A stretch of DNA of 53,679 bases from an uncultured Erysipelotrichaceae bacterium (GTDB taxonomy: Bacteria; Bacillota_I; Bacilli_A; Erysipelotrichales; Erysipelotrichaceae). The notes below the pieces were generated by a model. It had not been told where the DNA came from. It searched no databases and saw only the letters and a program-made list of their open reading frames with translations. Positions 4,759 through 53,580 of the stretch are shown in pieces. Numbering within the stretch: position 1 is the first letter of the stretch; each line of letters opens with the position of its first letter. Location of the stretch: NCBI GenBank assembly GCA_902793635.1, contig CADBEA010000013.1, positions 1 to 53,679 of the forward strand, read 5' to 3'. A program made the position numbers and the translations under genes.

Positions 4759-4987
4759 GATTCTATTTTACTTGATTGCCCTGGCGCAAAGCACATAAAA
4801 TGACTGCTTTTCGAGGATGATGCAGACCGGCCGCGCTGTCTCTGTTTCCATCAGGAAAAAACAGTGGTTCCAAACAGCACGTACCTTTTCAACTGCCCGT
4901 TCTTCCATTACAATGGATTCAAGTCTCAAAAGGGGGAAAAACGCACAGATGCCTGCCTGGGCATTCACAGGTGCGTCCGGAATCACT

Positions 4988-10082: not shown

Positions 10083-10207
10083 TTCAATACACCTCCGTAT
10101 TGCTTCAGGCGTCCATTCCGCCTGCGCGCCATATCATAGCATGTCTCTTGTTTTTCATCAATTCACGGCGGTTTTATTATATGATGTACATATTCAAGGT
10201 GGTAACT

Positions 10208-11167
10208 ATGGAAGAAATCAGAATCACGGAAATTGAAGGTTTCCGTTTTGGAAATGCGGAATATGCGAAAAGCGCAACAGGCTGCACGGTCATCCTCGCT
10301 GATCCCGGTGCTGTCACCGGCGTCGATATCCGCGGCGGCGCACCTGCCTCCCGGGAAAGCGGTCTGCTCAATCCTCTGGCTGACAACAGCAGCGTCAATG
10401 CGGTCCTGCTCAGCGGCGGCAGTGCTTTCGGTCTGAGCGCGGCGGACGGCGTCATGAAATATCTGGAAGAAAGAAATATCGGCTTCCCCACCGATGCCGG
10501 CGTGGTGCCGATCGTCTGTGCTTCCTGTCTGTTTGACCTCGGTCTTGTCGACGGTAAAGTCCGGCCTGACAGCGCGCTTGGATATCAGGCCTGTCTGAAT
10601 GCGGAAAAAGGCATATTTCAGGATGGTTCCTATGGTGCCGGCTGCGGCGCCACGGTCGGCAAGATCCTCGGTCCTGCTTCGATGATGAAAGCCGGTCTTG
10701 GCACCTATGCCGTTCAGGTCGGTGATCTGAAGGTCGGTGCCGTTGTGGCTGTAAACGCGGTCGGTGACATCTATGATCCGAACGGAAAGAAGATCGCCGG
10801 TATATACGATCCGAAGACCGGTGAATTCGTTGATGCGGTGGAAGCGATGGTTAAAACCATGCAGGCTGTCAATCTGTTCCGTCAGAACACGACGATCGCG
10901 GCTGTTGTCACCAACGCCAAACTGAACAAGACAGCTTTGACAAAGGTCGCCGGCATGGCTCATGACGGTTTTGCCAGAGCGATCCGGCCGGTTCATACCA
11001 TGTTTGACGGAGACACCGTCTATGCCATGTCCAGCGGCTCTGTCCCTTCCGATATCAATACTGTCGGTGTTCTGGCTGCCGAAGTCATGGCCAGAGCCAT
11101 TGCCAGAGCGGCCCGCCCGGAAGGTGAGGCCTATGGCGTACGCAAAGCAGATGCGGAGGTGAAATAA
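10208..11167 (+). CDS. P1 family peptidase (S58, DmpA/NylC-type N-terminal nucleophile hydrolase)
   Basis: 319 residues. LSGGSAFGLSAADGV near residue 68, the GAGCGATVGK strand near 143, the Asn-Thr-Thr of RQNTTIAAV (Asn227-Thr228) and FDGDTVYAMSSGS near 265 match the P1/S58 family. By analogy with NylC the precursor should cut itself before Thr228, which then becomes the nucleophile. Members hydrolyse amide bonds of short peptides or amino-acid amides. The ATG at 10208 follows a GGTGG site and matches the family start. It lies one base before serC, so the two are probably co-transcribed, though no functional link to serine synthesis is known. Confidence 0.85.
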   Translation: MEEIRITEIEGFRFGNAEYAKSATGCTVILADPGAVTGVDIRGGAPASRESGLLNPLADNSSVNAVLLSGGSAFGLSAADGVMKYLEERNIGFPTDAGVVPIVCASCLFDLGLVDGKVRPDSALGYQACLNAEKGIFQDGSYGAGCGATVGKILGPASMMKAGLGTYAVQVGDLKVGAVVAVNAVGDIYDPNGKKIAGIYDPKTGEFVDAVEAMVKTMQAVNLFRQNTTIAAVVTNAKLNKTALTKVAGMAHDGFARAIRPVHTMFDGDTVYAMSSGSVPSDINTVGVLAAEVMARAIARAARPEGEAYGVRKADAEVK

Positions 11168-24520: not shown

Positions 24521-24954
24521 AGTCTGATTATCTGATCGTCCACCGCAAAATACTGCCGGAATATCTGGACAAGGTCATCTACGCGCGGAATCTTCTCGAA
24601 AGCCATGAAGCGGCAACGATCACGGAAGCCGTGCAGATGGCCGGTATTTCCCGCAATACTTACTACAAATACAAGGATTATGTTTATGAAGGCGATGCGA
24701 CGATGTCGAAAAGGCACGCTGTCATCAGTATGATCCTGAAAGACGAAAGCGGCTCGCTTTCTTCTGTGATCAACGCCCTTTCCGATCTTCATACCAGTAT
24801 CCTGACAATTTCCCAGGCAATTCCGATCGCCCGCAAGGCAAACGTTCTGATTTCCCTGGATATTACCAACATGACATGCACTGTCGACGAACTGACCGCC
24901 GCCCTGAAGAAACTGCCGGCCAGCCGCAGTGTCCATCTTGATGCTATTGAATAG
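24517..24954 (+). CDS. HTH-ACT protein (UPF0735/PheB-like), probable amino-acid-responsive regulator
   Basis: 145 residues. Residues ~32-57 (ATITEAVQMAGISRNTYYKY) read as a helix-turn-helix; residues ~72-145 form an ACT domain (MILKDESGSLSSVINALSDL). This is the UPF0735 ACT family. Being the third, overlapping gene of thrC-thrB suggests that it senses threonine or a related amino acid and controls the locus, perhaps through the dyad at 22096-22108; this is inference. The historical PheB/chorismate mutase label fits poorly here. Confidence 0.8.
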   Translation: MKSDYLIVHRKILPEYLDKVIYARNLLESHEAATITEAVQMAGISRNTYYKYKDYVYEGDATMSKRHAVISMILKDESGSLSSVINALSDLHTSILTISQAIPIARKANVLISLDITNMTCTVDELTAALKKLPASRSVHLDAIE

Positions 24955-24965
24955 GAGGTCGTCAA

Positions 24966-25376
24966 ATGGATCCGAAACTGAAAAAGTTCTTTGCCTTCTT
25001 CATGGCCGCGGCCGATCTTCTGCTTCTGCCATTCTTCCTGATCGACGGCATTTCCACAGGTGACACCATCAGCTGGTTTCTGACCGCGTTCTTCGCGATC
25101 GACACCTATCTGACGATCGACTATATCAATGAGCTTACCAAGAAGATCAACGAGGAACAGGAACAGACGGAAAAGGATAGCCGTGAATATGCCCGCAACC
25201 TGGCCAAGGCCCAGTACTCCTATATGAAGCAGCAGGAGGAAGATCAGCAGATGGCTGCCGAGATCCGCAAAGCCAAGGAAGTCGAAGAGATGGATCCCGA
25301 CGAGCTCCGCGATTTGCTTTCCGGCCAGACCGTCCAGACATTTGAACACGAAGAAAAGCACATGAGTCAGCAATGA
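24966..25376 (+). CDS. Small two-helix membrane protein with coiled-coil tail
   Basis: 136 residues: two membrane segments (about 8-26 and 36-55), then ~60 residues of Glu/Gln/Lys-rich coiled coil, then a PDELRDLLS motif near the end. Follows the thr operon by 11 bases with GGAGG before the ATG, so probably its last gene. A protein with the same plan and a matching PEELQELLQ motif is at 27081-27500. Function unknown. Confidence 0.7.
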   Translation: MDPKLKKFFAFFMAAADLLLLPFFLIDGISTGDTISWFLTAFFAIDTYLTIDYINELTKKINEEQEQTEKDSREYARNLAKAQYSYMKQQEEDQQMAAEIRKAKEVEEMDPDELRDLLSGQTVQTFEHEEKHMSQQ

Positions 25377-27535: not shown

Positions 27536-28654
27536 TTACAGGAAGCAGAGATTGGCCGGCCGGTTGACATGAATGTCTCTGCCTTTTTTCAGTTTTCCGT
27601 CCGCCTGCACCTTAAATACCGTGATCACGTCACTTTCCGTATTGCATACATACAGGAAACGGCCATCTTTACTGAAGGCCATGCCGCGGGCATTCGCACC
27701 GCCGCAGGGAATTGTCTGCACAAGCGATGGAATTCCTTTTTCGTCCAGCGAACAGATAGAGATCATATCGGCAAACCGCAGCACAGTATAGACAAATCTG
27801 CCGTCATTGCTGATAAGAACGTCGGATGCCATGCCGATCAGCGGCTGATCAAGCAGTTCCGTTTCGGCCAGAAGCTTCATCCGGCCGGTTTTTTTCTGAA
27901 TGACAACAGTATACAGTTTGCTGGTCTGCTCATTATTCACATAGAACATCGCTTTGTCAGGATGAAAAGCGGCATATCGCGGATCACTTCCGTCCGGCAC
28001 TTCCAGAATGTCTTTCAGGATTAGCCGGCCGCGTCTGATCGCATAACTGTAAACCTGGTCCAGACCCTTGTCACAGACGATCAGCAGATCGCTGCCCGGC
28101 AGTCTGTATACGGAATGTAGAAGCGATACTTTTCCGTCTTTGGGAGCGTGGCAGTGAAAATCCACCGCTTTGCCGATCGTTCCGTCAGAATTGATTTCAA
28201 AAAGCACGACAGCCGCATCGTCATTGACAATTTCCTGAATGACTCTGCCTTTGCTGTTTTTCATCAGCTTTGTAGCGCTGTCCCTTGTTGAAGTATGGTG
28301 CACGGCAATCAGGTACCTGCCGCTTTGATCCAGACAGCAGAACGACGGTGTGACAGCCATCGACTGCTCTTCAGAAATCACTTCCAGTCTGCCCTTTTCA
28401 TCGACCTTTGCGGCAAACACATACCCTCCGCCGCCGGTTTTGCGTCCTTTCAGTTCCTTGCGTTCATCGACAAAATAGATGAAGCCATCCTGTCCTTTTA
28501 CCACCGGACTGCCGACCTTGACATCCGGCACATAATTGCGGAAAGAAGAAAGAGTTCCAGTCTTTTCATTGACCCGGCAGATATTGACACCTTTCTGCGT
28601 ATCAGAACCATCCCAGTCCCAGCTGCCGACTGCCGCATAACTTCCTTTTGTCAT
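27536..28654 (-). CDS. Lactonase family protein (6-phosphogluconolactonase-like propeller)
   Basis: 372 residues made of seven repeating blades; the GTLSSFRNYVP start, LLHSVYRLPGSDLLIVCDKG and ARGMAFSKDGRFLYVCN segments are typical of the seven-bladed lactonase family (PF10282). Members hydrolyse 6-phosphogluconolactone or are carboxy-muconate lactonizing relatives. GGAGG lies before the ATG, just after the GH1 terminator. A role in hexose-phosphate metabolism fits the GH1 neighbour. Confidence 0.85.
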   Translation of the reverse strand: MTKGSYAAVGSWDWDGSDTQKGVNICRVNEKTGTLSSFRNYVPDVKVGSPVVKGQDGFIYFVDERKELKGRKTGGGGYVFAAKVDEKGRLEVISEEQSMAVTPSFCCLDQSGRYLIAVHHTSTRDSATKLMKNSKGRVIQEIVNDDAAVVLFEINSDGTIGKAVDFHCHAPKDGKVSLLHSVYRLPGSDLLIVCDKGLDQVYSYAIRRGRLILKDILEVPDGSDPRYAAFHPDKAMFYVNNEQTSKLYTVVIQKKTGRMKLLAETELLDQPLIGMASDVLISNDGRFVYTVLRFADMISICSLDEKGIPSLVQTIPCGGANARGMAFSKDGRFLYVCNTESDVITVFKVQADGKLKKGRDIHVNRPANLCFL

Positions 28655-43982: not shown

Positions 43983-46040
43983 TCAGATTTTCATCGCTGT
44001 CTCATAAGCCTGCCAGATGACCGTGCGCAGATTGCCGACTTTGTCACAGTCGCCGATCAGCCAGACGTTCTTCTTCTTTTCGGCAGGCAGCGGAGCCGGC
44101 AGATAGCCGGTCGCGGATATCACGCTGTCACAGGGTATTTCCATGATATTGCCGTCCTTGTCTGTGCAGACAATATGATCGTCATATACTTCCCGCAGAC
44201 TGGTTTCCAGATATACCGGGACATTCTTCCAGGCGAAGAACTCCCGCAAATAGGAACTGTTGGCCAGACATACGCCTTTCTGGGCAATCAGATCATTCAT
44301 CATTTCGACAATGACTGGTTTTTTGCCCTGCAGATACAGTTCATAGGCAATTTCACAGCCGGTCAGACCGCCGCCGATCACGGCGACTGTTTCCCCGACC
44401 TCTTTTCCGCTGAGATATTCACAGGCTTCGATCATCTTCTCATGGCCTTTGATGTTCCGCATGATGCGCGGTACAGCCCCGGTGGCGATGATGACGGGAT
44501 CTTCGCCGAATTCGCTGATCGAATGCACTTCATAATTGCGGCGGACATCGATTTCCAGATCCTTCATCTGCTTTTCGTACCACTTCAGAAGATCACGCAG
44601 TTTTCCTTTATAGGATGCCGCGGAAGCCGGAATGAACGTACCGCCGAGCCGGTCGCTTTTCTCATAGATGACCGGTCTGTGGCCGCGCAGTTTCAGAATG
44701 CGGGCCGCTTCCATGCCGCCGATACCGCCGCCGATAATCGCGATCGTTTGCGGTCTGTCCGTCGGTTTGATATAGTGTCTGTCCCACTGCATCGTTTCCG
44801 CATTGACGGCACAGCGGCTCATATGCAGGGAATCATAAAGATCCTGATCGTTCGGCACACCCTTGTAATGGGCCATGTTGAAGCAGCCGTTGTGACAGAG
44901 AATGCAGGGCCGGATATCATCTTCCCTGTTTTCCAGCAATTTGGTTACCCATTCCTGATCGGCCAGGAAAGCACGGGCGAAACCGGCCGCGTCGATTCTT
45001 CCTTCGGCCACTGCTTTGGCAGCTGTCTTTGGATCCATACGGCCGGCACAGACAACCGGGATATCGGTAAACTGACGGATGTGAGCCACATATTCCAGAT
45101 TGCAGTTTTCCGGCATGTAGATCGGCGGATGAGCCCAGTACCAGGCATCATAGGTGCCGTTGTCACAGTTCAGCATGTCATAGCCGGCTTCCTGCAGCAG
45201 CTTCACAGCCGCTTCGGATTCCGCCATATCACGGCCGACTTCCGTGAATTCTTCACCGGGCAGAGCACCCTGACGGAATCCCTTGGTCTTGGAAACAACG
45301 GAATAACGCAATGATACCGGAAAGTCTTCACCGCAGGCTTCCTTGATGGCCCGGACGATTTCAATCGCAAAACGGTATCTGTTTTCCAGCGAACCGCCGT
45401 ATTCATCCGTCCGATGATTCACATACGGCAAGGTAAACTGATCGAGCAGATATCCTTCATGCACGGCATGGATCTCCACACCGTCAACGCCTGCCTCCTG
45501 CAGCAGCTTCGCGCTCTTCGCAAACGCGTCAACATACTCATGAATCTCTTCCACCCTCAAAGCCCGGGATGGCACCTTGTCAGACCATCGGTTCGGAGAC
45601 GGCGAAGCACTCGCGGTAATACGGTCAATATCCATGACCGGTTTGGCAACCGCCCGCAGCAGTTTGTTGGTGTAAAGCTTCTCCATCATTTCCGAAACTG
45701 TGAAACTGCGTCCGAATCCGGCTGTCAGCTGCACAAACAGCTTCGCACCGGTCTGATGGAACGCCGGCATCCATTTTTTCAGATCGGCGAACATCTTCTT
45801 ATTCTTATAGAGCCACTGACCGTACATCGGATTCCATACCGGCTGACAGCCCGGTAGAACCAGACCGGCCTGATTTTTCGCAACTTCCATAATGAACTTC
45901 GCACCGACTTCGTCAAAATGATTGATTTCCATCCAGCCGAACAGATCGGTTCCGCCCATGGAAGTCAGAACGATCCTGTTTTTGATTTCCAGATCACGGA
46001 TCTTCCATGGTGTAAACAGCGGGGCATATATTTCCTTCAT
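43983..46040 (-). CDS. Old Yellow Enzyme-type NADH:flavin oxidoreductase with Fe-S and FAD/NAD domains
   Basis: 685 residues, three parts. Residues ~1-370: FMN barrel (NRIVLTSMGGTD, EIHAVHEGYLLDQF, TDEYGGSLENRYRF). Residues 379-410: Fe-S ligands C379, C382, C386 and probably C410. Residues ~430-685: FAD/NAD module with IIGGGIGGMEAA and VIGGGLTGCEIAYEL. The layout is that of 2,4-dienoyl-CoA reductase and the bile-acid/steroid enoate reductases (BaiCD, BaiH, OsrB-like) of gut anaerobes, which reduce activated C=C bonds. The substrate is not readable. The last Cys is 24 residues from C386, against about 12 in 2,4-dienoyl-CoA reductase. Faces its likely TetR regulator gene upstream on the same strand. 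Confidence 0.88.
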   Translation of the reverse strand: MKEIYAPLFTPWKIRDLEIKNRIVLTSMGGTDLFGWMEINHFDEVGAKFIMEVAKNQAGLVLPGCQPVWNPMYGQWLYKNKKMFADLKKWMPAFHQTGAKLFVQLTAGFGRSFTVSEMMEKLYTNKLLRAVAKPVMDIDRITASASPSPNRWSDKVPSRALRVEEIHEYVDAFAKSAKLLQEAGVDGVEIHAVHEGYLLDQFTLPYVNHRTDEYGGSLENRYRFAIEIVRAIKEACGEDFPVSLRYSVVSKTKGFRQGALPGEEFTEVGRDMAESEAAVKLLQEAGYDMLNCDNGTYDAWYWAHPPIYMPENCNLEYVAHIRQFTDIPVVCAGRMDPKTAAKAVAEGRIDAAGFARAFLADQEWVTKLLENREDDIRPCILCHNGCFNMAHYKGVPNDQDLYDSLHMSRCAVNAETMQWDRHYIKPTDRPQTIAIIGGGIGGMEAARILKLRGHRPVIYEKSDRLGGTFIPASAASYKGKLRDLLKWYEKQMKDLEIDVRRNYEVHSISEFGEDPVIIATGAVPRIMRNIKGHEKMIEACEYLSGKEVGETVAVIGGGLTGCEIAYELYLQGKKPVIVEMMNDLIAQKGVCLANSSYLREFFAWKNVPVYLETSLREVYDDHIVCTDKDGNIMEIPCDSVISATGYLPAPLPAEKKKNVWLIGDCDKVGNLRTVIWQAYETAMKI

Positions 46041-46209: not shown

Positions 46210-46775
46210 CAGATACTTTCATTTTCTTCCGTTTCCTCCATCTGGGCATGGTTGAAAAGCCGGTAGATCATCAGTGCCACACTGTGCGCACTCTCCCTTT
46301 TGCCGTTTTCCTCCCACTTCAGAAACGAATTCAGAAGACCGCCCGCATAGGCATACAGTTCATACATGTGCAGTTTCTTCTGGGGCAGAATGTTCTTCAT
46401 CATATACTCGTTGACCGCGTCGATCAGCACCGTATACAGACCGTGCCGGTTGAGAATCAGGAAATAGCGGGAATGCCGGTCAAAATAATTCAGAGAAAAC
46501 TCAATGTGTTCCAGTCGCATGAAGACACCAGGATCCTCGATTTCGCCGCCTTCGATCATATATCCTGTCACGATGATATCCAGATAGTCACACAGCGCAT
46601 CATAGAGATTTTCATAATACCGGTAAAACGTCATGCGTGAGACACCGGCCCGGCGGATGACATCCATTACCTTGATCTGGGAAAACTCGGTATTTTCCAG
46701 TTCGTCCAGAATGGCATTGCCGATCGCGGTACGGGTGGAAACGGTACGGCTGTTAAACTCTTTCCTGATTTTCAT
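46209..46775 (-). CDS. TetR/AcrR family regulator, probably of the OYE-type reductase
   Basis: 188 residues. HTH at ~20-58 (FSQIKVMDVIRRAGVSRMTFYRYYENL), then a helical ligand domain with many aromatic residues and an acidic tail. Immediately upstream of the reductase gene with a terminator between them. The perfect dyad TGTAACA-AA-TGTTACA just before its own start suggests autoregulation. The inducer may be the substrate of the reductase (inference). Confidence 0.85.
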   Translation of the reverse strand: MKIRKEFNSRTVSTRTAIGNAILDELENTEFSQIKVMDVIRRAGVSRMTFYRYYENLYDALCDYLDIIVTGYMIEGGEIEDPGVFMRLEHIEFSLNYFDRHSRYFLILNRHGLYTVLIDAVNEYMMKNILPQKKLHMYELYAYAGGLLNSFLKWEENGKRESAHSVALMIYRLFNHAQMEETEENESI

Positions 46776-46778
46776 GGC

Positions 46779-46814
46779 TGTTACACTTTCCCGGCCACTG
46801 TAACAAATGTTACA
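46779..46814. promoter_or_regulatory. TetR-type operator in the tetR-degV intergenic region
   Basis: TGTAACA-AA-TGTTACA (46799-46814), a perfect 7-bp dyad, with an extra TGTTACA half-site at 46779-46785 right next to the tetR start codon. It lies between the divergent tetR and degV genes and could affect both. Confidence 0.6.
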
Positions 46815-46890
46815 TTTTCCGCCTTTTTGTACATTTTATCATCTGCCCTTCGTTCATACAATTCTGAATTGTTGAACGGAGGTGCTCAAC

Positions 46891-47724
46891 ATGAGAATTA
46901 TCGCTGATTCATCCTGTGATCTGTATACACTGGACTATCCGGATTTCCGGACCGTTCCGCTGACTGTTTATACTGACGAGAAAAGCTTCCTTGATGACGA
47001 AGCTCTGAATATTACTGAAATGCTCGATTATCTGGCCGGTTTCAAAGGCCGCTCCTATACATCCTGTCCGAACACGGAAGCCTGGCTGGCAGCCTATGAA
47101 GGAGCCGATGAAATCTTCGTCTCCACTGTGACAAGCGCTCTTTCCGGATCGTACAACAGTGCCGTTCTGGCGGCAGAAATGTATCAGGAAGAACACCCGG
47201 ACGTGAAGATTTCCATAATTGATTCTCTTTCGACCGGTGCCGAAGAGATCCTTCTGCTTCTGAAACTGAAGGAAATCATCGAAAGCGGTGCTTCCTTTGA
47301 AGAAACCGACACCAGGATCCGTGCCTACCTGAAGAGCACCCGTCTGTTCTTTTCCTTTTTCTCCCTGCATAACCTGAGCCAGAACGGCCGTGTCAGCAAA
47401 GCAGCGGCAGCGGCTCTCAATCTGCTGAATATCGCTGTCATCGGCACTGCTTCCGAAGTCGGCAAAATCAGCGTGACCGGTAAAGCAAGAGGCAGCCGCA
47501 AAGCGATCCGCACACTGATCACAGACATGAAAAAGGCCGGATATACAGGCGGCCGTGCTGTCATCACTCATGTCGAGAACGAAAGCGCGGCAGAGGCATT
47601 GAAACAGGAAATTCTGAAAGAATACCCTGCTGCCGACCTGCGTATCTATCCGGCCCGCGGTTTATGCAGTTATTACATGGAACGAAAAGGTGTCGTTATC
47701 AGCTGTGAAACACAGACTGTCTGA
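46891..47724 (+). CDS. DegV family fatty acid-binding protein
   Basis: 277 residues. IIADSSCDL at the start, TSCPNTEAWLAAYEG near 51, VSTVTSALSGSYNSA near 70 (Ser ligand for the carboxyl group), and FFSFFSLHNLSQNGRVSKA near 152. DegV/FakB proteins hold a fatty acid for the FakA kinase; fakA is not in the window. GGAGG is 8 bases before the ATG at 46891. Converges on the beta-helix lipoprotein gene with 3 bases between stops. Confidence 0.88.
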   Translation: MRIIADSSCDLYTLDYPDFRTVPLTVYTDEKSFLDDEALNITEMLDYLAGFKGRSYTSCPNTEAWLAAYEGADEIFVSTVTSALSGSYNSAVLAAEMYQEEHPDVKISIIDSLSTGAEEILLLLKLKEIIESGASFEETDTRIRAYLKSTRLFFSFFSLHNLSQNGRVSKAAAAALNLLNIAVIGTASEVGKISVTGKARGSRKAIRTLITDMKKAGYTGGRAVITHVENESAAEALKQEILKEYPAADLRIYPARGLCSYYMERKGVVISCETQTV

Positions 47725-47727
47725 TCA

Positions 47728-49179
47728 TCATTCCTGATCTTCCGGCCTGGCCGGCGGTTCCCCACCGCCAAAACCGTCTCCCGGAGGCTTTTCCGGAGGC
47801 TGACCATGGGAAGAGCCATCTCCCGGCGGCTTCTCCGGCGGCTGACCGTCCGGCATGACGCCCTGGCTGCCATCTGACGAGACAACTGTCTCAACAGCTT
47901 CACCCTGGGAAGCCGTGCCTTCTTTATAAGCTTCACCGCTGACATATAACGTATGACCGTTGAGGTCAATACTGTCAGCCTCGCAGGTCAGTGACGTAAT
48001 ATAGGAATCCGCGCTCAGTTTCCATACTGAGCCGTTTTTGATTTCCACATACACTTCGCCTTCCTGGCCGTCCGGATTGATGGCACCCTGGAAAGAAGAC
48101 GCATCGTCAAGATACAGATTCAATGTCGATACACCATCAACCAGCATGTTGCCGCTGATCGGCTGCTTCTTCGCATACATATTCACATGACCGCCGTTCG
48201 AGCCTTCCCTGCCCCAGCCGGCTGCTGCCGCCCGCAGGAAATTGCCGGACGCGTCATTGTTGATGATCTCGGCATTGGAGAGACTGATGTCGGCTGTCGT
48301 GTTGTTCACGAAGAAGATATCGCCGTTGGCATTGGTGAGACTTCCGCCGTTCATGGCAAACGAGGCTTTGCCCTGGGCGGCGTCGCCGGACATTGACTGA
48401 TAGATCATTACCGCCTGAAACCAGTCAGACTTGTCACTGTTTTTGGAATTGTTGTCGGCATACAATTCGACGTTGTTCAAAGTGACGGAGTTCTTGCCTT
48501 CAACGACAATACCCTGGGCGGAAGTCGATTTCATCAGGGCATCCGTGACGGTAATATCCGCCGTCGAGTAAACAACCGGTGATCCTTTGCCCTCAGCTGT
48601 GTAGCTGCCGCCGGTAACCGTTACCGTTCCGCCGCCGCGGTCCGAACGGATCGCCGCTGATGAATTGCCCGTTGTATGAACGGTCAGATTTTCAGCTTTC
48701 GTTGTACCGCCGCCGGTCGTCATCAAGCCGCCCGAACAGTTTCCTGTCGTTTCAATTACTGAGTCGGCAATGTGAACAATCGTGCCGCTGCCATAGCTGA
48801 AGACAGCGTTGGCATGCGTGCCGTTTGTTTTGATGACCATCTCTTTCAGATCCAGCGCTGCGCCGTTTGTCGCAAAGACAGCCGCGTTGGCACCGTAGAA
48901 GTCCGCTTCATCACCGGATGCTTCACCGCTTTTGTTGACCGCCGTATTCGCATAGGAGACTTCTTCCCCGTCAGCTGTAATGGCGTGTTCACCGTCGGCT
49001 GTGTTTTCCAGCGTGTCCTTGATTTCGATATCCGCTTCACTCAGATACGTTTTCGTCTGTGCGGCAGTTTCTGTCTGTTCCTGCGGTGTGTCCGTTTCCG
49101 TTTTGGAAACCGCACCGGCACAGCCGGTCATTGCCGCAGCCAGCAGTCCGATTATCAATCGTTTGAATTGTTTCCGCAT
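47728..49179 (-). CDS. Beta-helix lipoprotein with proline-rich C-terminal repeats
   Basis: 483 residues from the ATG at 49179 (GGAGG 8 bases upstream). Signal peptide with lipobox MTGC (Cys near residue 19), a ~30-residue Thr/Gln/Glu linker, then ~330 residues of short repeating strands rich in Gly, Asn, Thr and Val (TVTVTGGSYTAEGKG, SVTLNNVELYADNN) that read as a right-handed parallel beta-helix. The C-terminus has two copies of GQPPEKPPGDG separated by a short spacer, then a third weaker copy. Similar plans occur in surface carbohydrate-binding (DUF4353-like) proteins of gut Firmicutes. An adhesin or glycan-binding role is inference; no catalytic motif seen. Confidence 0.75.
   Translation of the reverse strand: MRKQFKRLIIGLLAAAMTGCAGAVSKTETDTPQEQTETAAQTKTYLSEADIEIKDTLENTADGEHAITADGEEVSYANTAVNKSGEASGDEADFYGANAAVFATNGAALDLKEMVIKTNGTHANAVFSYGSGTIVHIADSVIETTGNCSGGLMTTGGGTTKAENLTVHTTGNSSAAIRSDRGGGTVTVTGGSYTAEGKGSPVVYSTADITVTDALMKSTSAQGIVVEGKNSVTLNNVELYADNNSKNSDKSDWFQAVMIYQSMSGDAAQGKASFAMNGGSLTNANGDIFFVNNTTADISLSNAEIINNDASGNFLRAAAAGWGREGSNGGHVNMYAKKQPISGNMLVDGVSTLNLYLDDASSFQGAINPDGQEGEVYVEIKNGSVWKLSADSYITSLTCEADSIDLNGHTLYVSGEAYKEGTASQGEAVETVVSSDGSQGVMPDGQPPEKPPGDGSSHGQPPEKPPGDGFGGGEPPARPEDQE
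47758..47857 (-). repeat. Tandem repeat encoding GQPPEKPPGDG
   Basis: Two near-identical in-frame copies of a 33-base unit for GQPPEKPPGDG, then a degenerate third. The unit could vary in copy number between strains by slippage or recombination. Confidence 0.7.
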
Positions 49180-49203
49180 ATTCTGCCTCCTGTTGTTTGT
49201 GTC

Positions 49204-49222
49204 ATTATCATAAATTGATAAT
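49204..49222. promoter_or_regulatory. 19-bp inverted repeat upstream of the lipoprotein gene
   Basis: ATTATCA-TAAAT-TGATAAT, perfect 7-bp arms, in the 121-base gap between the divergent lipoprotein and ridA genes. The arms resemble Fur-family half-sites but in the opposite order and with a 5-base centre, so the regulator is not assigned. ridA has TATAAT at 49272-49277. Confidence 0.5.
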
Positions 49223-49300
49223 CTGAATTCTATGTGAACAAACCCGAAAGAAATTCTGATATTCAGACGTTTATAATAAATAACAGGAGGATCATTGATC

Positions 49301-49672
49301 ATGAAACAGATTTTTGCGGAAAATGCCCCGAAGGCGATCGGCCCGTATTCCCATGGCTATATTGCCGGCAGTCTCTTTTTCTCATCCGGCCAGATCGGTG
49401 CTTATCCGGACGGAAGCCCGATGGCTGATACCATCGAAGCCCAGGCGGAACAGAGCTGCCGCAACGTCGGTGCTGTACTGAAAGCAGCCGGTACGGACTA
49501 TGACCATGTTGTCAAAACGACATGTTTCCTGGCCGATATGAACGACTTCGCGGCTTTCAATAAAGTATATGAAAAATACTTTGTCTCCAAGCCCGCCCGC
49601 AGCTGCGTGGCTGTCAAAACACTGCCGGCCGGCGCGCTTTGCGAAATCGAAGCAATCGCGGAAATCGCATAA
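49301..49672 (+). CDS. ridA: RidA family imine/enamine deaminase
   Basis: 123 residues. KAIGPYSHGYIAGSLFFSSGQI near 11, the catalytic Arg100 in KPARSCVAV and LPAGALCEIEAIA at the end. RidA trimers hydrolyse 2-aminoacrylate and other reactive enamines made by PLP enzymes. ATG at 49301, ten bases after GGAGG; a TTG two codons earlier is closer to the site and cannot be excluded. Confidence 0.93.
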   Translation: MKQIFAENAPKAIGPYSHGYIAGSLFFSSGQIGAYPDGSPMADTIEAQAEQSCRNVGAVLKAAGTDYDHVVKTTCFLADMNDFAAFNKVYEKYFVSKPARSCVAVKTLPAGALCEIEAIAEIA

Positions 49673-49676
49673 TCTG

Positions 49677-49712
49677 AAACAGTGGCCCTCATATTGAGAA
49701 CCACTGTTTTTT
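49677..49712 (+). terminator. Terminator of ridA
   Basis: 9-bp stem AAACAGTGG/CCACTGTTT with TTTTCTT tail. Confidence 0.85.
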
Positions 49713-49713
49713 C

Positions 49714-50271
49714 TTATTTCAGTTTCATGCCTTCCCTGAAGGCATCCGCGACAACTTCACCGACGACACGATATTTGTTCATGGCGGAATCGAACATGAT
49801 CGGCTGCATCTTGCCAAGATCCACCTTGCCGTCTGTCAGGATGGATTCGTCAGCGCTCATATTGACCGTTTCACCGATCAGCAGATAGCCGTCCGTATCC
49901 GGTTTCAGTTCGACAACCTTGCATTCGAGGGTCAGCGGGTATTCGGTAAATACAGGTGCGTCCACATACTCGCTCTTTACTGCGTGGAAGCCTGCTCTGG
50001 CGATCTTATCAACGTTTTTGCCTGATTCAATGCCGAAGTAATCAGATGCGGTCACTGTGTCCTTAGTCGCAAACGATACGGTAAAGGCATTCTTCAACAG
50101 CAGGTTGTCCGTTGTCTTGTGTTTTGCCAGACTGACAATGATCTGATGAGCGTCCACCTGTCCCGCCCAGGCCGCGTTCATGGCATTGGGAACACCGTTT
50201 TCATCATAGGTGCCGAGAATGACGACCGGCAGCGGTGTGATAATTGTTTTCTTTCCAAAATCTTTTCTCAT
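49714..50271 (-). CDS. Flavin reductase family protein (FMN-binding split barrel)
   Basis: 185 residues from the ATG at 50271. MRKDFGKKTIITPLPVVILGTYDENGVPNAMNAAWAG at the start is the family signature (FMN-phosphate contacts), followed by LAKHKTTDNLLLKNAFTVSF near 57. It transfers electrons from NAD(P)H via FMN; the partner is unknown. A start nine codons upstream (50298) is possible: TATACT lies only 8 bases before it, so a transcript starting there would have almost no leader. Confidence 0.85.
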   Translation of the reverse strand: MRKDFGKKTIITPLPVVILGTYDENGVPNAMNAAWAGQVDAHQIIVSLAKHKTTDNLLLKNAFTVSFATKDTVTASDYFGIESGKNVDKIARAGFHAVKSEYVDAPVFTEYPLTLECKVVELKPDTDGYLLIGETVNMSADESILTDGKVDLGKMQPIMFDSAMNKYRVVGEVVADAFREGMKLK

Positions 50272-50325
50272 TTCAACTGTCTCACTTTCCGGTTTCATTA
50301 TTTCATAGTATATGCTGATTTTGCA

Positions 50326-50339
50326 TGAAAACGATACAT
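50326..50339 (+). promoter_or_regulatory. Possible cre site upstream of the PfkB kinase gene
   Basis: TGAAAACGATACAT matches the CcpA cre consensus at 12 of 14 positions, about 60 bases before the kinase start. Weak on its own but fits a catabolite-controlled sugar locus. Confidence 0.3.
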
Positions 50340-50399
50340 AATCATTGTGATTTACTGACCGGACATGTTTGTAAAATAATAAAAAAAGGAAGGTTTTCT

Positions 50400-51203
50400 A
50401 TGAAGCGTCTTGCCTGTTTTGGAAGCTGCTGTATCGATTACTATACCGATTTGAACGGAGGCAGTCCGTTTGCCGGCGGCGGTCCGGTGAATGCCGCTGT
50501 CAAGGCTGCCGAAAAAGGAATGCCGGTATCCCTGCTCAGCTGTGCCGGCGACGATGAATACGGCGATCTGCTCAGAAACGCACTGCGAAACAGAGAAATC
50601 GATCTCTCTCATTTTCACACGGCGCCCGGAAAAACCGCATTCTGTCAGGTTGAGATGAAAGATCATGAGAGGATCCTGGGTGATTATGATGAAGGTGTCA
50701 TGGCTGACTGGAAGCTGACCGCTGATGACATTTCTTTCATCATGGAACATGACATCATTCTGAGTGATCTCTGGGGTCATCAGGAAGAATTCCTGCCGGT
50801 GCTGCGGGAAAAAGAGGATCTGATCATTGCCTATGACGCGGCTGATCGGCCTGACGATCCGGCCGCCATGCTGGCGATGCCATACTGTGATCTGTTCTTC
50901 TTCTCGTCGGAAAGTGACTTTGAAACAATTATCGGTGACATGCTGGAAATCATGCGCCGCGGTCCGAAGCTCGTCATTGCCATGTGCAGCCATAAAGGCT
51001 CTGTCTGTATGAACAGTGACGGCATACTGAAGTACAGAATCATTCCCGAAGAAGAGATCAAGGACACCATTGGTGCCGGAGACAGTTATATCGCCGGATT
51101 CCTGTATGAATACGCGAAGGGATCCGACCTGAAGGACTGCATCAGTGAAGCCTCGGAAGCCGCCCTTCCCGTCCTGAAGCACCACGGTGCCTTTGAGCAG
51201 TAA
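50400..51203 (+). CDS. PfkB family sugar kinase, fructoselysine 6-kinase (FrlD)-like
   Basis: 267 residues from the ATG at 50400, with AAGGAAGG 6 bases upstream. GGGPVNAAVKAAEKGMPVSLLSCAG near 24 (substrate site) and DTIGAGDSYIAGF near 222 with the catalytic Asp are PfkB signatures; the length and the SIS-domain deglycase remnant after it point to the fructosamine kinase branch (FrlD), which phosphorylates Amadori products such as fructoselysine. The partner is broken, which makes the present role uncertain. Confidence 0.8.
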   Translation: MKRLACFGSCCIDYYTDLNGGSPFAGGGPVNAAVKAAEKGMPVSLLSCAGDDEYGDLLRNALRNREIDLSHFHTAPGKTAFCQVEMKDHERILGDYDEGVMADWKLTADDISFIMEHDIILSDLWGHQEEFLPVLREKEDLIIAYDAADRPDDPAAMLAMPYCDLFFFSSESDFETIIGDMLEIMRRGPKLVIAMCSHKGSVCMNSDGILKYRIIPEEEIKDTIGAGDSYIAGFLYEYAKGSDLKDCISEASEAALPVLKHHGAFEQ

Positions 51204-51214
51204 AGGGAAAAAAT

Positions 51215-52266
51215 ATGTATAAAGCTGAATTATGAAAAGAGACCGTTTCCGTTCTGCCTGATTATGATGAGACAGAACTGATACGCAGTGTCAATTCCGT
51301 TCTTTCCCTGCGCAGCCGTATTGAAAAGATCATTGACGAAATCTGGGCAAATGATTTTGACAGTGTCTTTTTCATCGGTATCGGCGGCACGTATGCCTCC
51401 TGCCGGCAGGCGGAGGTATTCATGCGGGCAGATCTTCTCTGCCTGTCTACGCGGAAAACGCGGCGGAATTCAACACGACCGGCAATCAGCGTCTGAGCAG
51501 CCAGTCGGTCGTCATCTTCTCTTCTGTTTCCGGTACGACACCGGAAATGATCACCATGATCCGCAGGATCCATGATATCGGAGCCAAAGCATTCGGTTTT
51601 GTCGATACGGAGGATTCCGAACTGGCCGGAATGACTGACTGGGTGATCAGTGTGCCGAAGCAGGAACAACTCAAGTTCTTCCTGGTCTGCACATATCTGA
51701 TGTACCGCAACCATGAGTTTGACGAATATGACCGTTTCAGCCGGCAGCTGAGTGCCTGTTTGGCCAAAGACCTCGCCGAAATCGAAAAAGAAAGCGATGC
51801 CTGGGCGAAACAGTTCGCTCAGAAAACATCCGCTTTCCTGAAAGAACATCCGGATATGCCGCATTACTTCATCGCTTCCGGCAATCTGTCGGGAGCCGCC
51901 TATTCTGCCGCCATGTGCTACTGGGCCGAGCAGTTTTGGATCAGAACCGTATATGTATCCGCCCAGGATTTCTTCCACGGCATGCAGGAAGTGATTACCA
52001 GAGACGTGCCGGTGATCCTGTTTGTCGGTAAAGACGAGCAGCGGCCGCTGGCCGAACGGGCAGCCCGCTTCCTGCCGAAGGTATGCGCGAATTACACGGT
52101 CATCGACAGCAGTGAACTGCCGCTGAACGGCATTGACGAACAATTCCGCGGCATTCTCAGCCCGCTCGTCATCCGTTCCGTCATGAACCGGATCGATGCC
52201 TGGCTGGAAATCGAGCTGCGGCATCCGCGTTCGATCCGCCGTTATTACCGGCAGTTCGATTACTGA
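51215..52266 (+). pseudogene. SIS-domain fructosamine-6-phosphate deglycase (frlB-like), broken
   Basis: Full-length homology is split by two lesions. The ATG at 51215 (after GGGAAA) opens MYKAEL, then an in-frame TGA at 51233-51235; the frame continues as ETVSVLPDYDE ... FFIGIGGTYASCRQAEVFMR, then shifts near 51424-51432 (one base apparently lost), after which SLPVYAENAAEF, VVIFSSVSGTTPEM and the second SIS domain (IASGNLSGAAYSA, SAQDFFHGMQEVI) run on to the normal RRYYRQFDY end at 52266. SIS deglycases release glucose-6-phosphate and the amine from the FrlD product. An ATG inside the second half could give a 239-residue fragment, but it lacks the first sugar-phosphate loop. Sequencing error could explain one lesion, less easily both. 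Confidence 0.82.
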
Positions 52267-52931
52267 AACGCGCTTCTTTCCCACAGGAATGGAATAATGT
52301 CCGTGAAATCCTTCATCGTATGGATCACACACGGATAGTCTTTGTATATATGCATCAGGCTTTGTGTTTCAAGAGCGATGACGTCAGCGCCGATTTCCTG
52401 CGCACATTTAATACCGGAAAGAGAATCCTCAAAGATCAGGATCTGATCGGCATGGATTCTTTTTTTCGCTTCCAGGAACATACTGATCTTATCCTGATAG
52501 GAACCGTCGTCATAAACGATCATTGCCGGATCCAACCAGTGATCAAGATGGAAATAACGGATAAAGAATTCAATGTTTTCGATAATGGAAGCACTGGCGA
52601 TCGTAAAAGGAATATTGTTCTCACGCAGCCAGTCAAACAGTTCGGCGGCACCTTTGACGAGATGTTCCCCGCCCGGGGCGCTCTGCACAAAGCCGCGGTA
52701 CAGTTCTTCCTTCTTACGGGAGTATTCTTCCGCTTCCGCCCGGCTGAGAGAAGGCTTCATACGCAGCACCACCTCCGCATTGGGAACACCGGAAATCTCC
52801 TTATCCATGATCTCTTCCGTTACTTCCCGGCCGCACAGTTCCATGGAAATCTCATTCCAGGCCAGAACATGATATTTCGTATCGAAAAAAAGCGTTCCGT
52901 TGAAGTCAAAAATCACACCGTTGTATGTCAT
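52260..52931 (-). CDS. HAD family phosphatase, beta-phosphoglucomutase-like
   Basis: 223 residues. IFDFNGTLFFDT at the start (nucleophile Asp9; the second acidic residue of DxD is Asn11), cap domain ~18-85, ASASIIENIEFF near 124 (motif II Ser), KKRIHADQILIFEDSLSGI near 164 (motif III Lys and motif IV Asp). The fold is that of sugar-phosphate phosphatases/mutases. The Asn in place of the acid/base Asp would change or slow catalysis. ATG at 52931 follows GAGGTG. Converges on the frlB-like pseudogene with a 7-base overlap. Confidence 0.85.
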   Translation of the reverse strand: MTYNGVIFDFNGTLFFDTKYHVLAWNEISMELCGREVTEEIMDKEISGVPNAEVVLRMKPSLSRAEAEEYSRKKEELYRGFVQSAPGGEHLVKGAAELFDWLRENNIPFTIASASIIENIEFFIRYFHLDHWLDPAMIVYDDGSYQDKISMFLEAKKRIHADQILIFEDSLSGIKCAQEIGADVIALETQSLMHIYKDYPCVIHTMKDFTDIIPFLWERSAFQ

Positions 52932-52992
52932 ACGCACCTCGCAATGATAAATATCTGTAGTACTATGTATCTTAACATAAGGAGGAACGGCC

Positions 52993-53565
52993 ATGAATAT
53001 CCCTATCGACATCTCAGATGTCACAATTGAAAGTCCGCGGCTGCTGTTAAGACCATGGCACCCGGATGATCTGCAGGATCTGTATGATTATGCAAGTGTT
53101 GACGTAGTCGGTCAGATGGCCGGCTGGAAACCCCACCAGTCCCGGGAAGAATCCGGACAGATCCTCGACATGTTCATCAATGGAAAGAAAACTTTCGCGG
53201 TGGAATACGAAGGAAAGGTGATCGGCTCACTGGGCATTGAATACTATGACGAAAAGCAGATCCCCGAGCTGAATGAATTCAGAGGAAGAGAAATCGGCTA
53301 TGTCCTTGCGAAAGATTTTTGGGGCAGAGGTCTGATGTCGGAAGCTGTCAAAGCCGTCATTGACTGGTTCTTCATACATACCGACGGTGAATTCCTGACC
53401 TGCGGATATTTTGTCTGGAACCGGCAGTCGGAACGTGTCCAGGAAAAATGCGGCTTTCACTTTCTGAAAGAAATCAGTTTTGAAACCATGCTGGGCAAAA
53501 CCGAAAAATCAAATGTCAACATTCTCTGGAAGCGGGAATGGGAAGCCACAAAAAAAGAGGACTGA
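52993..53565 (+). CDS. GNAT family N-acetyltransferase (RimJ/RimL-like)
   Basis: 190 residues. SPRLLLRPWHPDDLQDLYDYA at the start, REIGYVLAKDFWGRGLMSEAVKAVIDWFF near 95 (acetyl-CoA loop WGRG), and NRQSERVQEKCGFHFLKE near 140 are RimJ/RimL-type signatures. Acceptor unknown. AAGGAGG is 9 bases before the ATG; the region upstream is shared with the divergent HAD gene. Confidence 0.9.
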   Translation: MNIPIDISDVTIESPRLLLRPWHPDDLQDLYDYASVDVVGQMAGWKPHQSREESGQILDMFINGKKTFAVEYEGKVIGSLGIEYYDEKQIPELNEFRGREIGYVLAKDFWGRGLMSEAVKAVIDWFFIHTDGEFLTCGYFVWNRQSERVQEKCGFHFLKEISFETMLGKTEKSNVNILWKREWEATKKED

Positions 53566-53580
53566 TCACAGTGATCAGTC
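53560..53580 (+). terminator. Hairpin ending the GNAT gene
   Basis: GACTGATC-ACAGT-GATCAGTC, overlapping the stop codon, followed by TTCAGTTTG. The weak tail is backed up by a second hairpin at 53596-53633. Confidence 0.6.

Follow-up and report, generated by a model that had tools for sequence, protein, structure and literature searches.

The window analysed here, the whole stretch of 53,679 nucleotides from a gut bacterium, carries an intact kinase gene of the FrlD type followed on the same strand by a broken gene for a SIS-family deglycase (Table 1). The kinase gene is a single open frame without any lesion, as an earlier note on this DNA had described it. The ATG of the deglycase lies eleven bases past the kinase stop, and its frame reads MYKAEL before meeting a TGA; this first frame runs to about 51430, and the rest of the gene, up to 52266, is in another frame. 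Both lesions that had been claimed for the deglycase, a stop at codon 7 and a frameshift near 51424-51432, were recovered, the latter as a missing base inside that range.

Table 1. Features of the kinase and deglycase genes in the window.
Feature	Position	Strand	Evidence
FrlD-like fructosamine 6-kinase, PfkB family, intact, 267 aa	50400..51203	+	Open frame, NCBIfam, PF00294, identity to FrlD, invariant columns
Fructosamine-6-phosphate deglycase gene, SIS family, broken	51215..52266	+	Stop, frameshift, intact sister copy, fold of sister protein
Premature TGA, deglycase codon 7; 10 of 17 rows of relatives carry Trp in this column	51233..51235	+	Sequence and alignment
Site of one-base deletion in G run, shifts the frame	51425..51428	+	Alignment to sister, one base fewer in the window
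Rest of deglycase in second frame, 93% identical to sister; first start codon ATG at 51547	51433..52266	+	Alignment to sister
Lys codon at sister Glu273, column invariant in 16 relatives	52030..52032	+	Alignment

Between the TGA and the shift the first frame has a single possible start (ATG, GTG or TTG), at 51422, past the conserved GGTYAS segment. The first start of the second frame corresponds to residue 112 of the intact protein in the sister species described below, so that a product begun there would be missing roughly half of its first SIS domain. With a stop at codon 7, a frameshift and no useful internal start, the deglycase of the window has no expressible open reading frame.

A promoter scan gave two promoter-like sites where shuffled sequence would be expected to give 2.3, no more than chance, and no terminator-like site was found in the same scan. 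A search of a plasmid collection gave three short and weak matches. Opposite the deglycase, an antisense ORF of 356 amino acids (51262-52332, minus strand) was recorded as spanning both lesions; it has no Pfam match, similar antisense ORFs lie opposite the deglycase in the sister species, in G013 and in Acutalibacter, and it was interpreted as a side effect of codon usage.

Identity of the kinase and the deglycase

The assignment of the kinase to the FrlD type in the earlier note agrees with its top NCBIfam match, fructoselysine 6-kinase, at 243 bits, a score under the NF007321 equivalog cut-off of 247 bits. The kinase of the sister species, 89% identical to it, is above this cut-off with 250.1 bits, and the miss is thus a narrow one. 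Membership of the PfkB fold family is indicated by a PF00294 score of 108.1 bits, and identity to E. coli FrlD is 38% over 266 columns. The GAGD motif (G225, A226, G227 and D228) is kept, each residue in an invariant column, and all 46 columns that are invariant in 15 relatives are unchanged. The gene also adjoins a deglycase gene, as looked for in an FrlD-type kinase, though here the neighbour is broken. The kinase is predicted to phosphorylate fructosamines at C6. A lesion suspected in the kinase of another relative (G003) was rejected, since the TAA sits at the gene end.

The deglycase family was judged from the intact sister protein, modelled with 17 sequences at a pLDDT of 88.5. The model matches 2a3n (TM score by query length 0.88), 8glr (0.84) and FraB entries (0.70-0.74), and also 3eua and 3fkj; this agreement with FrlB and FraB structures bears out the earlier call of a SIS-domain deglycase. 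The two-SIS fold of the solved deglycases is thus predicted for the intact sister protein and not for that of the window. Sister residues E239 and H255, invariant in 17 rows, align with the catalytic Glu of FraB (E214) and with the His 16 residues further on, and the equivalents of both are present in the second deglycase fragment of the window. The numbering of the FraB chain is offset by 20, which was assumed to reflect a tag. The excerpt of PMC12755824 names E214 of FraB as catalytic.

Against the NF008481 FrlB equivalog the sister deglycase scores 82.4 bits, far under the cut-off of 430 bits (E. coli FrlB scores 812), which places it in the wider FrlB/GfrF/FraB group rather than with the FrlB equivalogs. 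Nearest to it in both sequence (E about 1e-55) and fold are 2a3n (STM4540.s) and 8glr, the latter entitled FrlB, deglycase for 6-phosphofructose lysine, yet both are only about one third identical to it. None of the papers in the collection searched names 8GLR. The E. coli frl operon (FrlA, FrlB, FrlC, FrlD) likewise has a SIS-family deglycase, FrlB, to which the sister protein is 26% identical. Related systems are treated in excerpts on Gfr (PMC12675984), on B. subtilis Frl (PMC12632257) and on glycation (PMC5270733).

Comparison with the sister species

A contig search returned eight loci, the closest being L080 from the metagenome-assembled genome (MAG) Solobacterium sp. isolate RGIG2362 of goat ileum, here called the sister. 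The alignment to L080 spans positions 46427-53580 of the window at 87.5% identity, and the sister deglycase (L080:4788-5840) lies intact in the same place as that of the window, open over 350 codons. Set against 68 kb of the sister contig, most of the window keeps the same order and falls into five blocks of 85-93% identity, and 53 of 55 surveyed window ORFs have a match in this stretch. The ORFs flagged in the survey were antisense frames, probable start extensions and a GNAT gene; those on the opposite strand were counted as spurious, and the sister ORF opposite window positions 24687-25361 has no Pfam match. The GNAT acetyltransferase gene (52993-53565), intact in the window and with two in-frame stops in the sister, is a mirror of the deglycase case. 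A 685-residue NADH:flavin oxidoreductase (43983-46040; Oxidored_FMN) is without a counterpart in these 68 kb of the sister contig and has an 87% match in G011.

That the lesions reflect an assembly or consensus artefact, or a minority strain in a mixed sample, with the gene intact in the population, has to be weighed since the genome is a draft of 79 contigs (95.4% complete, 3.55% contamination), the deletion sits in a short G run and the deglycase carries few other changes. Picked by eye from the sister survey, 43 conserved window genes, a set of 41,550 coding bases that excludes the deglycase, contain no uncompensated frame-breaking indel inside the aligned part when compared with the sister, and the deglycase stands alone in this respect. 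For the genes called at 4817, 10016, 22060 (minus strand) and 49302 (minus strand), indels or stops near the start were set aside as probable mis-called starts, and the other window-sister indels whose length is not divisible by three are either intergenic or at such probable mis-called starts. The absence of any other break in these genes speaks against careless assembly. Two independent lesions in one gene, which in addition carries a substitution at an invariant column, also argue against an artefact or a minority allele, and we regard either as unlikely.

Divergence and selection

Between window and sister, dS and dN are 0.643 and 0.058 for the kinase, 0.667 and 0.085 for the N-terminal part of the deglycase, and 0.253 and 0.035 for its C-terminal part (51433-52266). 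The low dS of the C-terminal part may stem from local recombination.

Amino acid changes were polarised under three counting rules. With all relatives, the window and sister lineages differ little, both in the deglycase (6 versus 5, 20 ambiguous) and in the kinase (7 versus 6, 16 ambiguous). When the two close outgroups, G017 and G011, had to agree, the deglycase leaned to the window lineage (9 versus 1, and 10 versus 1 in an earlier run; Fisher p 0.02), the kinase did not differ significantly (7 versus 4, p 0.54) and the background of 21 genes was even (78 versus 76). With G017 alone neither the deglycase (13 versus 7, p 0.25) nor the kinase (11 versus 6) was significant. The excess in the deglycase of the window lineage hence appears under one rule and vanishes under two others. 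One background gene, at 27536-28654, is equally lopsided (17 versus 6), and the GNAT gene that is broken in the sister leans towards the sister (6 versus 14, p 0.10). The background set omits a surface gene and 10207-11167, which have stops in the trimmed coordinates, and RidA, which has no match in G017. In the protein trees the window branch is longer than the sister branch for the deglycase (0.070 versus 0.028) and for the kinase (0.083 versus 0.039), and since the latter gene is intact, branch length does not set the broken one apart.

At 1 of the 83 deglycase columns that are invariant in 16 relatives (G016, whose copy is cut off, was excluded) the window differs, with Lys in place of Glu273. 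Glu273 is not universal, its place being taken by Leu in B. subtilis 3eua and by Asn in E. coli FrlB, so E273K alone would not prove inactivity. The decay is thus slight and recent, and these sequence comparisons are no more than suggestive of relaxed selection on the window deglycase. On a rough bound the loss is no older than 1-19% of the window branch, a figure that varies with the rates and counts assumed, and the low C-terminal dS weakens this bound still further.

Distribution of the gene pair and uptake

Sixty genomes were searched for the two genes: that of the window, 35 from its genus and 24 from its order. A close deglycase (at least 55%) was found in 11 of the 35 same-genus relatives and a strong kinase match in the identical 11, a co-occurrence for which the Fisher test ignores kinship among the genomes; the remaining 24 have neither gene at that level. 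Distant deglycases occur in G007, G010, G022, G034 and G035, and distant kinases in G007, G012, G022 and G030. In G016 both genes lie at contig ends. With starts chosen by script, the spacing of the two genes is -17 to +33 bases in 13 of 14 measured pairs and 794 bases in G018. The order of kinase and then deglycase is genus-wide, the two genes overlapping or standing apart by a few bases (for instance L069, L073 and L075). The same pair is seen in L085, L086 and L087, from MAGs labelled Acutalibacter and Galloscillospira that do not belong to this genus, with deglycases 58-59% identical to that of the window, a hint that the pair has moved among distant gut Firmicutes.

Among the ORF beginnings listed near the pairs, which cover G008 and G013 only in part, no adjoining sugar importer in the same direction was seen by eye. 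In G026 an ABC-transporter-like pair precedes the two genes and looks like an exporter, and in G018 an FrlA-like permease (52%) lies beside them. A search for FrlA in 12 pair-bearing genomes gave no match in 8 and, besides the permease of G018, distant matches only (26-27%) in G011, G026 and G008; no FrlA-like permease was found in the sister or G017, and the genome of the window likewise gave no match. The deglycase has stayed intact in the sister and in G017 though they too are without such a permease, so its absence alone does not explain the loss.

Discussion

The most plausible explanation, which we hold to be fairly probable, is that a two-gene fructosamine unit has recently, and in fact, lost its deglycase and nothing else, through a nonsense mutation followed along the gene by a one-base deletion. 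The kinase is the first gene of the unit and breakage of the deglycase should therefore leave it unsilenced. The kinase would then still be made and fructosamines would be phosphorylated at C6, while cleavage of the phosphorylated product into a sugar phosphate and an amino compound would be lost, and a build-up of dead-end product is predicted for the lineage of the window. The state is probably tolerated either because little substrate enters, as the search for FrlA-type uptake would allow, or because so little time has passed since the loss that the kinase has yet to follow. The earlier note had spoken of a decaying pathway, which fits the broken deglycase and not the kinase, where none of the 46 invariant columns has changed and clear decay is missing.

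Three ways out of the apparent dead end had been proposed, of which a recent loss is the best supported. A second deglycase was searched for and none was found in the 95.4% complete genome, whose other SIS proteins above the Pfam cut-off are three RpiR-type regulators and an apparently GlmS-like protein (C1). The third proposal, a new substrate for the kinase, gained nothing in its support. In a broader form, in which the kinase acts on something else, or some unrecognised enzyme takes care of its product, and the deglycase is dispensable, it could account for the kept frame and the 46 kept residues, and the substrate of the family is not known here, with the window kinase just below its equivalog cut-off. 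The lack of a close second deglycase, the position of the highly similar and above-threshold sister kinase beside an intact deglycase, and the presence of a deglycase in 11 of 11 kinase-bearing relatives of the genus nevertheless make this quite improbable. The finding that most of the searched pair-bearing genomes of the genus are without an FrlA-like permease allows one to speculate that the pair serves to repair sugar-damaged amino acids inside the cell and not to forage, the window being a natural kinase-only state with a harmless product or with a kinase in a new role of its own, to which we give only a small chance. Whole expression by recoding, with the TGA decoded as Trp and the frameshift programmed, is scarcely credible in spite of the Trp found in that column of relatives, and was rejected because TGA is an ordinary stop in 19 of the 43 conserved genes (22 end in TAA and 2 in TAG; none has an in-frame TGA and 133 TGG are used), with neither lesion in the sister or other aligned relatives and no slippery heptamer seen by eye at the shift.

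A recent loss of the deglycase alone may be set beside the known systems. Unlike E. coli frl, the window pair has no adjoining epimerase, regulator or FrlA-like permease, its kinase comes first and its deglycase is broken. Salmonella fra (FraB, FraD) follows the same two-step logic, and FraB structures match the fold of the sister model, but there the deglycase gene comes first and a dedicated uptake gene, fraA, is present, whereas the kinase is first in the window; the deglycase lesions of Salmonella were engineered, and those of the window would be natural. According to the excerpt of PMC4941530, F-Asn is bacteriostatic to a Salmonella fraB mutant, in which 6-P-F-Asp accumulates, and the deglycase-first order is suggested to help avoid build-up of the intermediate. 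The excerpt of PMC12755824 reports that the harm in fraB mutants requires fraD expression, and that 96 resistant insertion mutants fell in fraA (86), fraD (9) and narU (1). As far as these two excerpts go, harm from a kinase without its deglycase in Salmonella needs both the kinase and the uptake gene. No paper in the collection searched joins fraB, pseudogene, fructose-asparagine and typhoidal, and the one that joins fructoselysine, pseudogene and deglycase is a review of ageing.

Within a pathway that is already known, the window locus is an ordinary pseudogene of mild physiological interest. Because the engineered equivalent harms Salmonella when substrate enters, a natural kinase-only lineage offers a small test of the conditions under which this state is tolerated, and the lack of an FrlA-like permease in most pair-bearing members of the genus that were searched puts the source of the substrate in question. 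Neither point alone alters the picture of Amadori-product metabolism. What gives this gene decay its mild interest is that in other bacteria a kinase left without its deglycase can produce a dead-end compound that does harm.
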